In this document: positions 11,771-16,949 of the stretch, in pieces
Numbering within the stretch: the first letter of the stretch is position 1
Layout of the letters: each line of letters begins with the position of its first letter
Assembly (NCBI RefSeq): GCF_024707485.1
Contig: NZ_CP102602.1
Location: 620,001 to 684,000, forward strand
DNA from: Thermococcus thermotolerans
GTDB taxonomy: Archaea; Methanobacteriota_B; Thermococci; Thermococcales; Thermococcaceae
DNA: 64,000 nucleotides
Direction: 5' to 3'
Program-made: the position numbers and the translations under genes
Notes under the pieces: generated by a model
What the model saw: only the letters and a program-made list of their open reading frames with translations
Told to the model about the DNA's origin: nothing
Database searches by the model: none

Positions 11771-13051
11771 TCACCCCTTTCTGAGCATGTCGTTGATGAG
11801 CTTTATCGCGCACAAATCGCCACACATCGAGCATGCCTCCGTTTTAGTCGGCCTCTCCTTCCTTATCTCGATGAACTTATCCCTGTCCTGGCTCAGCTCA
11901 AACTGCTTCGCCCAGTCGAGCCTGCCACGAGCGAGGCTCATGAGGTAGTCCTTTCTAAAATCCGCCTCGAAGCGCGTCAAATTGACTGCATGGGCGGCTA
12001 TTTTTGAAGCTATCACTCCTTCCTTTACGTGCTCCACCGTTGGCAGTCCGAGGTGCTCCGCCGGGGTGACGTAGCAGAGGAAGTCTGCGCCGTTTAGAGC
12101 AGCTATCGCCCCGCCTATGGCAGCTGTGATGTGATCGTAGCCCGGAAAGATGTCCGTAACGATGGGCCCCAGCACGTAGAAGGGCGCGTTGTCCGTTGCA
12201 ACCTTGGCGAGCTTTATCTGGGCCGGTATCTGGTCTATAGGTACATGCCCGGGCCCCTCGACCATCGTCTGGACGCCGAATTCCCTGGCTTTTCTAACGA
12301 GCCTCCCGAGGGTGTAGAGCTCGGATATCTGCAGTTCATCGCCGGCATCTGGAAGTCCACCGGGCCTCAGCCCGTCGCCGAGGCTCAGAACGACGTCGTA
12401 TTCCTTGGCCAGCTCAAGGAGGTAGTCGTAGTCCCTGTAGAAGGGGTTCTCCTCGCCCCAGTGGAGTATCCATGCCGCCAGAAAAGTGCCACCGCGCGAG
12501 ACCATGCCGACGACTCTCTTTACCCTCTTCATCTTCTCGACGACTTCCCTGGTTACTCCAACGTGAATCGTCGTGTAATCAACGCCGTCCTGGAAGTGCT
12601 TCTCAACGGCCTTCCACATGTCGTCTTCGGTCATCTCGATGATTGCCTTCCCCTTGGCCAGCATCTCCTCGGCGGCCTGGTAGATTGGAACCGTCCCGAT
12701 TGGCACATCAACGGCGTGCATTATGGCCTTCCTTATGGAGTCGAGGTCACCGCCGGTGGAGAGGTCCATTATCGTGTCGGCGCCGTACTTGACAGCGACC
12801 TTAGCCTTCTCTATTTCGGCCTTGACATCGACGATGTCGCGGGAGGTGCCTATGTTTGCGTTCACCTTGACGCGAACGACGTCGCCGACCGCGACGGGCT
12901 TAACCCAGTCGTGGCGGACGTTGCGGAAGATGACGGTGTGTCCTTTAGCCACGCTCCTCCTGAGCTTTTCGGGGCTTATCCCCTCCCTCTCGGCGATGAA
13001 CTTCATCTCCTCCGTGATTACCCCGCGTTTGGCCTCCTCAAGCTGGGTCAT
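11771..13051 (-). CDS. thiC: Phosphomethylpyrimidine synthase ThiC
   Basis: A radical SAM enzyme that rearranges AIR (5-aminoimidazole ribonucleotide) to the hydroxymethylpyrimidine phosphate of thiamine. The Fe-S cluster motif CSMCGDLC lies at the C-terminus, as is typical. The start at 13051 follows GGTGAT by four bases; an in-frame GTG at 13060 is less likely. At 426 residues it is the usual archaeal length. It is the first gene of thiC-purCPO and is transcribed away from the thi4 operon, separated from it by inserted DNA flanked by a repeated promoter sequence. Confidence 0.95.
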   Translation of the reverse strand: MTQLEEAKRGVITEEMKFIAEREGISPEKLRRSVAKGHTVIFRNVRHDWVKPVAVGDVVRVKVNANIGTSRDIVDVKAEIEKAKVAVKYGADTIMDLSTGGDLDSIRKAIMHAVDVPIGTVPIYQAAEEMLAKGKAIIEMTEDDMWKAVEKHFQDGVDYTTIHVGVTREVVEKMKRVKRVVGMVSRGGTFLAAWILHWGEENPFYRDYDYLLELAKEYDVVLSLGDGLRPGGLPDAGDELQISELYTLGRLVRKAREFGVQTMVEGPGHVPIDQIPAQIKLAKVATDNAPFYVLGPIVTDIFPGYDHITAAIGGAIAALNGADFLCYVTPAEHLGLPTVEHVKEGVIASKIAAHAVNLTRFEADFRKDYLMSLARGRLDWAKQFELSQDRDKFIEIRKERPTKTEACSMCGDLCAIKLINDMLRKG

Positions 13052-13064
13052 TCCCATCACCCGG

Positions 13065-13113
13065 TTTTAAAACCCGTTTATAACAAAGTTTTTAAATTTC
13101 AAAACTCAGTTTT
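13065..13113. repeat. thi control region, copy 1 (49-bp direct repeat)
   Basis: Forty-nine bases identical to 14828-14876, beginning TTTTAAAACCCG and ending CAAAACTCAGTTTT. Similarity continues to about 13130 (CTTAAAAGG shared) but with mismatches. This copy lies 14 bases from the thiC start codon. On the minus strand it supplies TATA-like TTTAAAAAC, about 40 bases before the ATG. It probably was once the shared bidirectional promoter of thiC and thi4. Confidence 0.85.
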
Positions 13114-13115
13114 GA
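13099..13115. promoter_or_regulatory. Palindromic operator candidate in the thi promoter
   Basis: TCAAAACTCAGTTTTGA is a perfect 17-bp palindrome with a single central base. In the second copy (14862-14878) one base differs (TTTTTA end). It sits upstream of the thiC TATA-like element. The thiamine regulator ThiR is known from archaea, but I could not compare its motif. Confidence 0.5.
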
Positions 13116-13195
13116 ACGGGACTTAAAAGGTTTTTGGAGCGCTCAATCGAAAACTTTTTGAAGTCGTAAGTATTATTAGCTGTTGAGGTGACCTT

Positions 13196-14779
13196 ATGAA
13201 AAAACTAATAATAGCAATTTTGGTAGGTTTAGGCTTAGTATTAACGGCACTTTCAGCCGCGTTGCAGATTCCCATAACCTCAATGGAGTACGCCGGAACG
13301 AAGGTTGAGTATTACAGGGGCACGTTTCTTGGCCCCTCCTTTGAGGTCGAGCTACCAACCAGCGACCCAGCAACGGTCACGGTCTCAATGCTCATGCCCA
13401 ACGGCTCTATGGTGGATCTTGGAGTGTATTCCGGCAAAGGCAAAATCTCAATAGACTTCCGCCGGGTACTTTACGCCATGCGTGAATGGAATAGATACCT
13501 GAGGGCAGAAGGCATAAACCCCGAGAGTGTTAAACCTTCACTGCTTCTGCTGGGGACTACGGTTGACAGAGACGGCAATCTAAACTACTTCATGAAAACG
13601 GTTCCCCTCAACATTGGCAGAATCGTGTCTGGAATGAGAGTTAAAGTCCAACTCGATAATTCAGCATCGGGCAGGCTTTATAGCAAAAGCGAAGTTGAGA
13701 AGATCCTCCATGATTCCAAAAGAGTAATCCCAAGGGAAATTGTAGGCGCGTCTTCCGATGGATCATCACTATTAGGATCTTCATGTTCACCTCCGTTCTA
13801 TGAGGGCGGTGATTGGACATGGTACTGCTTTGAGTGGTTCCACGAGAAGACATTGGGGAGGGCCAGCATCATTCCAGTGGCCGCTTTCCAAGTGGCTGGC
13901 GATACTGATAAGGTGAACAGCATTTTCATTTCTTTGAATTATGATGCAATATCTGACAACAGTGCGGAGCTGGCTTTTTCTGCAGTGGGAGCTATTGAGA
14001 AAGGCAGTGTCGGCGGTTCAGTGGAGGGAAAAATACTGGGTTATTCCTACACAATAGACAGTAGATCACTAAGGATCCCGGAATCGACAGTTAAGATATA
14101 GGGCTCAGAATTAACATCACCATCTGTTGTCGGGGCAGGGATTGGGGGAAGTGCTGTATTTTCTAAGTACAGGCTCTATAGAGTGGACTATGTCAACGGG
14201 AGAGTCTGGAACAAGAAGCCCCTGGACACTTATGCCTATGTGATTCTTGGAAAGCCTGATGAAAAGGACATGAGTCTAAGGAAATTCGTTGAACCCGGAT
14301 GGCCAAGAAATAGTGGTGGGCCAATGAGTAGAACTATGTGGTTCGTGCATTGGTATTGGGATACTAAAGGTAATATCGAGGGCAAGGGAGGAATCCTCAC
14401 CAATACTTACTACTTTGGTCACAGGGTGGACACCCTTCCACTGTTTTCGGCTTCAGCGCCGGTACTGGGTATCATCGGAAGCGGAAACACAAAAGTTGCA
14501 CCTTTTACCTTGGCGATTGGTGTGGGGTTAACCAAAGAAACAAGAACGTCCTCACTGGTCAGCGTCTCATTGGCACTAAAAGAAACGTACAAAAACACCA
14601 ACGTTCGTCTCACGATATACTCCAGTAAGGTTAGGCTTGAGTACAAGGGCAGGAAATATCCCCTCACGGGAATGTTCGGAGATATCTTCATACCTGGGAG
14701 TTCAGGGTACAATCCTCCCTGTGATCCACACAAGAGGTACTGTCCCACGGAGAATCCTGAAAACCCAACAGATCATTGA
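13196..14779 (+). pseudogene. Secreted protein gene interrupted by an in-frame TAG
   Basis: A signal peptide (MKKLIIAILVGLGLVLTALS) starts a 301-residue reading frame that ends at TAG 14099-14101. The same frame then continues without a break to 14779; the downstream part alone has a GTG at 14183, but the codons between (GSELTSPSVVGAG) read as ordinary protein. The whole would be about 526 residues. One TGG-to-TAG change would explain the break. RBS GAGGTGA precedes the start. Base composition is richer in A/T than the neighbours, consistent with acquired DNA. The family is not recognised; a glycine/serine-rich outer domain is plausible. Sequencing error or readthrough are alternatives. Confidence 0.75.
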
Positions 14780-14827
14780 TTTCCACCCTTTTTGATTTTA
14801 TCTGTAGATTTATGGTCTAAAGCTGAT
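14780..14827 (+). terminator. T-rich stretch after the interrupted gene
   Basis: The sequence after the stop codon has T-runs (CCCTTTTTGATTTT) typical of archaeal intrinsic termination, and it runs directly into the second copy of the thi repeat. Confidence 0.35.
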
Positions 14828-14876
14828 TTTTAAAACCCGTTTATAACAAAGTTTTTAAATTTCAAAACTCAGTTTT
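14828..14876. repeat. thi control region, copy 2 (49-bp direct repeat)
   Basis: Identical over 49 bases to 13065-13113. This copy is 32 bases upstream of the thi4 ATG and provides the plus-strand TATA candidates GTTTATAAC and TTTTTAAAT. After base 14876 the two copies diverge but still share CTTAAAAGG and TTTT. The two copies bracket 1,714 bases (13114-14827). Confidence 0.85.
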
Positions 14877-14908
14877 TACCGCGGCTTAAAAGGTTTTGGG
14901 TGGTCGCG

Positions 14909-15661
14909 ATGCTGAGGGAGATGGAGATAAGCAGGGCGATAATCGAGGCCTACACGGCCGAGCTTCTTGAGGGCCTGAGCCTCGACGTCGCTATTGTGGG
15001 CGCGGGCCCCTCGGGAATGGTTGCCGGCTACTACCTTGCCAAGAACGGGGTCAAGGTTGCGGTCTTCGAGAAGAAGCTCTCCATCGGCGGCGGAATCTGG
15101 GGCGGCGCGATGGGCTTCAACAGGATAGTCGTGCAGGAAGAGGCCAGAGAAATCCTCGATGAGTTCGGCATAACGTACAAGTCCTTCAAAAACGGCCTCT
15201 ACGTTGCCGATGCCATCGAGACAGCAACCACAATCGCGAGCCAGGCCGTTAAGGCCGGCGTGAGGTTCTTCAATATGGTTGAGGTCGAGGACTTGGTTCT
15301 CAAGGACGACCGCGTGGCCGGGATAGTGATCAACTGGACGCCGGTTCTCATGACGGGCCTCCACGTAGACCCGCTCACGGTGGAGGCGAAGTTTGTAATC
15401 GATTCGACTGGCCACGGGGCGCAGATAAGCCGGCACCTCGTCAAGAGGGGCCTGCTTGAGGTTCCCGGGGAGGGCCCGATGTGGGCCGAGAGGGGCGAGG
15501 AGCTGACGGTAAAGCACACGAGGGAAATCTTCCCCGGCCTCTACGTCACAGGGATGGCCGCCAATGCAATAGCCGGAGCACCGAGGATGGGACCGATATT
15601 CGGCGGAATGTTCCTGAGCGGGAGGAAAGCGGCCTTCGAAATTCTCGAAAAGCTGAGGTGA
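14909..15661 (+). CDS. thi4: Thiazole synthase Thi4
   Basis: Builds the thiazole moiety of thiamine from NAD and glycine. The 250 residues have a Rossmann FAD/NAD fold: VAIVGAGPSGMVAGYYLA near residue 27, then EKKLSIGGGIWGG, and C-terminal GAPRMGPIFGGMFLSGRKAAFE. The yeast enzyme gives up an active-site cysteine as sulfur donor; the corresponding stretch here (STGHGAQISRHLVKRG) has no cysteine, which fits the archaeal type that uses sulfide and works catalytically. Start at ATG 14909 with GGTGG upstream; GTG at 14900 is less likely. thiDN follows four bases after the stop. Confidence 0.93.
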   Translation: MLREMEISRAIIEAYTAELLEGLSLDVAIVGAGPSGMVAGYYLAKNGVKVAVFEKKLSIGGGIWGGAMGFNRIVVQEEAREILDEFGITYKSFKNGLYVADAIETATTIASQAVKAGVRFFNMVEVEDLVLKDDRVAGIVINWTPVLMTGLHVDPLTVEAKFVIDSTGHGAQISRHLVKRGLLEVPGEGPMWAERGEELTVKHTREIFPGLYVTGMAANAIAGAPRMGPIFGGMFLSGRKAAFEILEKLR

Positions 15662-15665
15662 TGGA

Positions 15666-16949
15666 ATGGCCGTTTTGATTATAGCCGGCCTCGACACCGG
15701 CGGGGGAGCTGGACTGAAGGCTGACATCGAGACGGTCTCGGCTTTAGGGGAGCACCCGCTCCCAATTCTTACAGCGGTCACCTACCAGAACCCCGAGAAG
15801 GTTTCTGGCTATTTCTCTCTTCCAGTGGAGGTCGTGAGGGACCAGATACAGGCCGTTAATGGGCACTTCGATATTAAGGCAGTCAAAGTGGGCATGCTTG
15901 GGAGCGGGGAGATAGCCAAGGTCGTTGCCAAGGAGACGGAGGACTTAACGAGGGTCTTCGACCCGGTGATGGCTTCGAGCACCGGTGAGAGGCTCATTGA
16001 CGACATCGAGTCGCTCAAGGTCCTCGTGAAGGGCTCAATAGTTACCCCAAATGTCCCGGAGGCCGAAGCTCTAAGCGGTCTTAAAATCCACTCCCTCGAG
16101 GACATGAAGGAATCCGCCAAGTTCATCGCCCAAACTCTGAAAGCGGAGGCGGTAATAGTCAAAGGCGGGCACCTGAACCTAACCGATCTCCTCTACTGGA
16201 ACGGGGAGTTTTTCGAGTTTCCTGGGGAAAGGGTCGATGGCTTCACCCACGGGACGGGCTGTGCCTTCTCGTCAGCCTTGGCCGCTTTTCTGGCGAAGGA
16301 GTTTGAGCTTCCCGAGGCAGTTGGAAATGCTAAGAGCTTCGTCGAAGGCGCCATAAGGTTCTCAAAGGCCGAAGCAAAGGCCGTCAATCCCCTCTGGAAG
16401 CTCCAGAGAGATGCCTACCGCTGGAGGGCCAGGGAAGAGCTTGAAAGGGCCGTTCAAGAACTCGTGAAGCTCGGCGAAAAACTCAACCCTCACGTTCCCG
16501 AGGTGGGGACGAACTTCGCGCTGGCGACTGCCCTTGGAGAGGTCTTCGCGGTGAAGGGCAGAATCGTCCGCTACGGAAAAACGGTTAAGCCAGTAGGACC
16601 GGTTGAGCTTGGAGCGAGCGACCACCTGAGAAGGGCATTGCTCAAGATGCGCGAGTTTTATCCTGAGGTTAGGGCCGTGCTCAACCTCCGCTATTCGGAA
16701 GGGCTGATAGAGCGGGCTAAAAAGCTCGGCCTCGTCGTTTCCTTCTACGACAGGAGGGAGGAGCCGGAGGAAGTAAAGAGGGCCGAGAGGGGGACGATGG
16801 AGTGGGGCATAGAAACTGCCGTGAAAAGGGCGGAAAAGAGGCCGGATTTAATCTACCACCTCGGTGACTGGGGCAAGGAGCCGATGGTTCTCATCTTTGG
16901 AAGGGACGCTCGGGAGGTTGTGGAGAGAGTTAGGGGACTTTTGGACTAA
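15666..16949 (+). CDS. thiDN: HMP-P kinase / thiamine phosphate synthase fusion ThiDN
   Basis: The N-terminal ThiD domain (about 1-250) phosphorylates hydroxymethylpyrimidine phosphate; it shows AGLDTGGGAGLKADI, the VGMLGS segment and the ATP-site pattern DGFTHGTGCAFSSALAAFL. The C-terminal ThiN domain (about 265-427) couples pyrimidine and thiazole to thiamine phosphate, replacing bacterial ThiE. The start follows the thi4 stop closely, with GGTGAT upstream. Together with ThiC and Thi4 the window encodes nearly the whole route to thiamine phosphate. Confidence 0.93.
   Translation: MAVLIIAGLDTGGGAGLKADIETVSALGEHPLPILTAVTYQNPEKVSGYFSLPVEVVRDQIQAVNGHFDIKAVKVGMLGSGEIAKVVAKETEDLTRVFDPVMASSTGERLIDDIESLKVLVKGSIVTPNVPEAEALSGLKIHSLEDMKESAKFIAQTLKAEAVIVKGGHLNLTDLLYWNGEFFEFPGERVDGFTHGTGCAFSSALAAFLAKEFELPEAVGNAKSFVEGAIRFSKAEAKAVNPLWKLQRDAYRWRAREELERAVQELVKLGEKLNPHVPEVGTNFALATALGEVFAVKGRIVRYGKTVKPVGPVELGASDHLRRALLKMREFYPEVRAVLNLRYSEGLIERAKKLGLVVSFYDRREEPEEVKRAERGTMEWGIETAVKRAEKRPDLIYHLGDWGKEPMVLIFGRDAREVVERVRGLLD

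Follow-up and report, generated by a model that had tools for sequence, protein, structure and literature searches.

Two copies of the thiC-thi4 control region enclose a secreted-protein gene exchanged among Thermococcus species

The locus and its direct repeat

The window analysed is a stretch of 64,000 nucleotides from Thermococcus thermotolerans (assembly GCF_024707485.1, contig NZ_CP102602.1, positions 620,001 to 684,000), and coordinates are those of the window unless a genome and contig are named. In this genome (G000, 2.07 Mb), the divergent thiamine genes thiC and thi4 are separated by a secreted-protein gene that lies between two copies of their control region. The 49 bases that are identical at 13065-13113 and 14828-14876, described in the original prediction as surrounding a 1.7-kb insertion, were confirmed by repeat search as the core of a 73-bp direct repeat (13065-13137 versus 14828-14900, 93% identity). 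A genome-wide search for further copies returned only these two, far above chance. The repeat is more than a core, being the entire thiC-thi4 intergenic region. In a relative with the same arrangement (G055), both copies retain ATCACCCGG, which abuts the thiC start; since the right copy still has it, the whole spacer is the duplicated unit.

The left copy of the bidirectional control region (13061-13137) serves thiC (phosphomethylpyrimidine synthase, 11771-13060, minus strand; Pfam ThiC_Rad_SAM, E=5e-185), which is transcribed away from the repeat. The right copy (14828-14899) serves thi4 (thiazole synthase, 14900-15661, plus strand; Pfam Thi4, E=2e-79) and, in the same operon, a thiD-thiN fusion (15666-16949, plus strand; Pfam Phos_pyr_kin and ThiN). 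Both copies correspond to the single intergenic region of relatives. The true start of thi4 is likely the ATG at 14909, preceded by GGGTGGT. In the left copy, a putative ThiR operator was found at 13098-13116, as the palindrome TTCAAAAC-TCA-GTTTTGAA; its exact form AAAACTNAGTTTT occurs only twice genome-wide and is conserved across Thermococcaceae. The corresponding half-sites of the right copy, AAAACT-C-AGTTTT, were located by motif search at 14864-14876.

Between the copies there is a single reading frame (13196-14779, plus strand), which encodes a signal-peptide-bearing, all-beta protein and is interrupted by a nonsense TAG at 14099-14101. The 5' end of this cassette (13138-13195, plus strand) includes the left junction, a BRE/TATA-like element (B recognition element and TATA box) CGAAAACTTTTTGAAG at 13148-13163, with a presumed promoter role, and a Shine-Dalgarno-like GAGGTGAC at 13185-13192. 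Downstream, a T-rich stretch at 14789-14799 (plus strand) may act as a terminator.

One copy or two among relatives

We searched 94 Thermococcaceae genomes with thi4 and read the thiC-thi4 spacer wherever a close thi4 homologue was present. The two genes are divergent neighbours in 48 genomes. The site is empty in 37 of these, with a spacer of 58-76 bp and one copy of the control region; eight of the 37 carry genus codes other than that of G000 (four other codes, g2-g5). A further thi4 scan of contigs contributed only two useful Thermococcus-type loci (L003 and L004), each with one copy. Because the single copy is found in 37 genomes including other genera, it is taken as ancestral. This is the arrangement that the original prediction had expected in relatives, and its proposal of a shared ancestral bidirectional promoter, later duplicated around an insert, is supported.

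Ten Thermococcus genomes (G000, G071, G061, G070, G035, G016, G065, G055, G023 and G017) have two copies around one common gene of about 528 codons, with start codons of thiC and thi4 about 1.82-1.86 kb apart (for G061, pieced together from two contigs). An eleventh, G044, has two copies enclosing an unrelated orphan open reading frame of 184 codons with a signal-like N-terminus (G044:C1:1614828-1615379, L225). The insertion is thus not peculiar to T. thermotolerans. Two control-region copies without cargo, which the original prediction regarded as a refuting case, were found in none of the genomes read, and one copy beside a different gene, its other refuting case, did not occur either. No remnant of the insert was found in the single-copy genomes.

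The carriers have in common the left junction CTTAAAAGGTTTTTGG, where TTTTTGG is followed by a stretch resembling GCGCTCAA, and the right junction is variable. The shared left junction argues for few origins. Seven genomes with genus code g3 have a related region upstream of thi4, with thiC at another place. We also observed a second, decayed thi4-like sequence with eight stop codons at G016:C4:78717-79466.

The inserted gene and its exchange between species

The original prediction described the inserted gene as broken. This holds for T. thermotolerans, but in the other nine carriers the gene is intact, with 527-530 codons. The rest of the interrupted frame is 99% identical to the intact copy of G071, so the nonsense codon is either recent or a sequencing error. 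The ratio of nonsynonymous to synonymous substitution rates (Ka/Ks) is mostly 0.04-0.3, and the value of 1.87 for the first part of the G000/G071 pair rests on only seven differences and is uninformative. By these sequence comparisons, purifying selection acts on the gene in the other genomes. It is more than debris, being intact there and having a promoter-like element of its own.

Nearly all carriers have the BRE/TATA-like box and the Shine-Dalgarno sequence, spaced as expected. The same arrangement precedes paralogues at other sites with no thi region upstream, and the gene therefore probably arrived with its own promoter, which it would still use. An origin of the second control copy from these paralogues was also considered, and was ruled out since no such region lies upstream of them. 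A distant intact paralogue, of about 31-38% identity, is present in the same genome at G000:C1:119339-120856.

As for the protein itself, no match of value was found in Pfam, NCBIfam, PHROG, PADLOC or PDB sequences. Structure prediction gave an all-beta model with long strands (mean predicted local distance difference test score, pLDDT, of 65), and no fold with a useful template modelling score (TM-score) was found in the PDB or among viral models.

On the rpoB tree the carriers are scattered, so that 8 changes are needed (5 of them forced by well-supported branches), and carriers as one clade are rejected by the approximately unbiased test (p 6e-5). The tree of the inserted gene departs from that of rpoB: G023 joins G065 and not G016, and G065 separates from its sister G055. 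Between G000 and G071, DNA identity is 99.1% in the insert, versus 89.4% in thiC, 88.7% in thi4 and 72% in thiDN. Such near-identical inserts have a synonymous divergence (Ks) of 0.005-0.013, versus 0.45-0.47 for the flanking genes. The pair G016/G070 is 98.8% identical over the second half of the insert and 83.4% in rpoB, and G023/G065 reach 95-96% in the insert and 82.5% in rpoB. The sister species G016 and G023, with 95.9% identity in rpoB, have insert alleles just 64-72% identical. Sliding comparisons reveal mosaic alleles, with sharp edges near the gene start and at the right control copy or the thi4 start.

Taken at the level of sequence, these comparisons show exchange of the inserted gene between Thermococcus species, and homologous recombination is its presumed route. 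T. kodakarensis is naturally competent, and the linear or circular DNA that it takes up is recombined homologously (PMC4633485). Apart from the insert, thiC of G055/G071 and of G065/G022 (in the latter pair also thi4) is 91-93% alike, versus 83% for rpoB, so that the flanking thiamine genes have themselves been swapped between species.

The control region and its putative regulator

Across 35 single-copy sequences, ATAACAAAGTTTTTAAATTTCAAAACTNAGTTTT is near invariant. It contains TATA-like elements in both directions and the palindrome AAAACT-N-AGTTTT, which occurs exactly only twice in G000, both times at this locus. By its sequence, the repeat reads as a compact promoter that works in both directions and carries a palindromic operator. 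In archaea the TATA box is found some 23 bp upstream of the start (T. kodakarensis, PMC4247193), which would place the palindrome between the thi4 TATA box and the start, a position suited to a repressor. A search of Rfam found nothing credible for a riboswitch in the repeat.

The thiamine repressor ThiR most likely binds this palindrome. The reported architecture of ThiR, HTH-ThiN (helix-turn-helix and ThiN), is that of a protein encoded at C1:1842930-1843817 (HTH_3, E=2e-8; ThiN, E=2e-45). A copy of the operator with one mismatch lies 11 bp before the start codon of this gene (G000:C1:1842906-1843817; L259, L269), which suggests that it may be autoregulated. In Pyrococcus, ThiR is PF0601 (PMC10746257). 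The exact AAAACTNAGTTTT is found at thiC/thi4 across genera, and the operator core also lies upstream of thiC in G093 and G012, both of other genera, with an altered form in G002. ThiR control of the thi promoters is thus likely.

Separately, an operator-like AAAACTAAGTTAT was found at G000:C1:1238746-1238758 (L267), 25 bp before a gene for a xanthine/uracil-type permease. This permease is possibly a thiamine-precursor transporter, though single-mismatch sites are near background.

The original prediction explained the identity of the 49-base core by selection or by recent recombination. Over 38 core columns, the left and right copies of one genome differ by 2.82 on average, versus 2.95 between genomes (permutation p = 0.38). 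Since the differences within genomes match those between them, conservation alone suffices for the identity in this part. Selection is therefore the part that stands: the core hardly varies among single-copy genomes, which supports family-wide conservation. Gene conversion that would homogenise the copies was unsupported for the core, and the same comparison over a longer stretch gave a weak signal (p = 0.044).

Proposed history and alternative explanations

The account that we favour, and consider probable as a whole, is that a shared promoter was duplicated around a cassette that was later exchanged in the manner of a minimal mobile element. It builds on the ancestral single copy, the duplicated state, the scattered distribution, the exchange between species, the mosaic alleles and the conserved core, as established above. 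In the ancestor, a single compact promoter would have driven thiC and thi4 in opposite directions, with a thiamine-responsive operator to which ThiR most likely bound. A cassette of one gene, encoding a secreted protein and having its own promoter, would then have been taken in between them together with a second whole control copy, so that each operon retained a complete one. The duplicated form alone is expected to survive, because an insertion without duplication would cut one operon off; any break in an overlapping bidirectional promoter disables one side, and both thi operons can stay functional at a filled site only if it has two complete copies. Cassette and alleles would thereafter have been swapped among Thermococcus species, with homologous recombination taking place in the gene itself, in the duplicated control region and in thiC and thi4. 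The repeats would both allow clean loss of the cassette, by recombination between copies, and supply homology for exchange. Candidates for the founding event are a tandem duplication followed by insertion, the integration of a circle carrying the region, and a repair with long duplication.

Several points weigh against this account. Duplication with simultaneous insertion needs a donor that already had the control region, or else a prior tandem duplication, whose cargo-free intermediate was not seen among the genomes read. Some of the exchange partners are draft genomes (G065 is on a 3.7-kb contig). ThiR binding is deduced from the motif together with the finding that the genome encodes ThiR, and single-mismatch operator matches are barely above those of a reversed-pattern control (11 versus 8 per strand).

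It is possible, though we think it somewhat doubtful, that Thermococcus acquired the cassette a single time, early on, and that the scatter reflects mostly repeated precise loss between the direct repeats, scarless and restoring one intact region. The shared left junction, a repeat of about 75 bp that eases clean loss, and the empty genomes free of remnants all agree with this. However, near-identical inserts between far-apart flanks require horizontal exchange, losses or not, and the alleles of 64-72% identity in the sisters G016 and G023 are not explicable by loss alone. Several independent insertions, with the control region duplicated each time, are an unlikely explanation. An example would be G044, whose 184-codon frame has no homologue in the 94 genomes and whose two copies both have the private variant AAAAGATTTTTGG, from which gene conversion or a younger duplication is possible. 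Yet the G044 insert resembles those of other carriers for 13 bases past the point where similarity to empty genomes ends, and this points to gene conversion, or to replacement of the gene at a site that already had two copies.

The secreted protein may instead be a member of the thiamine regulon, driven under ThiR by the rightward half of the left copy, for instance for the capture of thiamine or a precursor. That this half, CTTAAAAGGTTTTTGG, is kept in carriers though thi4 is no longer next to it would fit, but its retention may merely reflect recombination; a BRE/TATA-like box of the gene's own lies where it would be expected, the paralogues have this box with no thi operator, and no family or fold ties the protein to thiamine, which makes this quite unlikely. 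We are more doubtful still of a docking site, at which recombination between the repeats would make circles of one control copy plus cargo that re-enter any single-copy genome; if true, a regulatory region would serve gene cassettes as an attachment site that is reversible and needs no integrase. Lastly, the flanking direct repeats recall a transposon or virus with a long target-site duplication. This is highly improbable: the insert has one gene only, transposase, integrase and terminal inverted repeats were not found, and its main gene has no PHROG match. We know of no kind of target-site duplication that exactly equals an intergenic region of about 75 bp.

With duplication followed by exchange as the preferred history, the empty, filled and differently refilled sites would be natural intermediates in the entry of a gene into an overlapping bidirectional promoter, with both operons unbroken. 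Gene-sized allele swapping among hyperthermophilic species is documented here at one fixed site. The site also offers a test bed in a naturally competent archaeon, where the predicted scarless loss between the 75-bp repeats and the independence of the operator copies are measurable.

Comparison with known systems

The insert does not resemble a transposable element, having one open reading frame with no transposase or integrase domain and no terminal inverted repeats. In common with the ThiR regulon (Rodionov 2017, cited in PMC10746257), an HTH-ThiN regulator is present and the palindrome is found at thiC and at thi4, while a form with one mismatch lies before the regulator gene; the operator assignment follows from these features, not from comparison with the published ThiR motif. 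In the searchable literature, we found no operator duplicated around a foreign gene. Like other bidirectional divergent promoters, the thi region lets transcription start both ways from one intergenic region with a shared operator, but carriers have two full copies of it, and the known thi genes require each copy in a single direction.

The closest likeness is with the minimal mobile elements of Neisseria (Snyder 2007, as cited in PMC3082526), which are incorporated by homologous recombination with no mobility gene. Under that definition, the thi cassette appears to fit the pattern. Its flanks, thiC and thi4, are conserved in fixed order in 48 genomes, and different whole-gene cassettes, or none, lie between them. 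No mobility gene was found in the insert, which has sharp, near-identical tracts; its incorporation would be by homologous recombination. Unlike the known elements, the thi site is archaeal and its cassette is exchanged between species. The unusual feature is that the divergent flanks share one control region, which is duplicated when the site bears a cassette.
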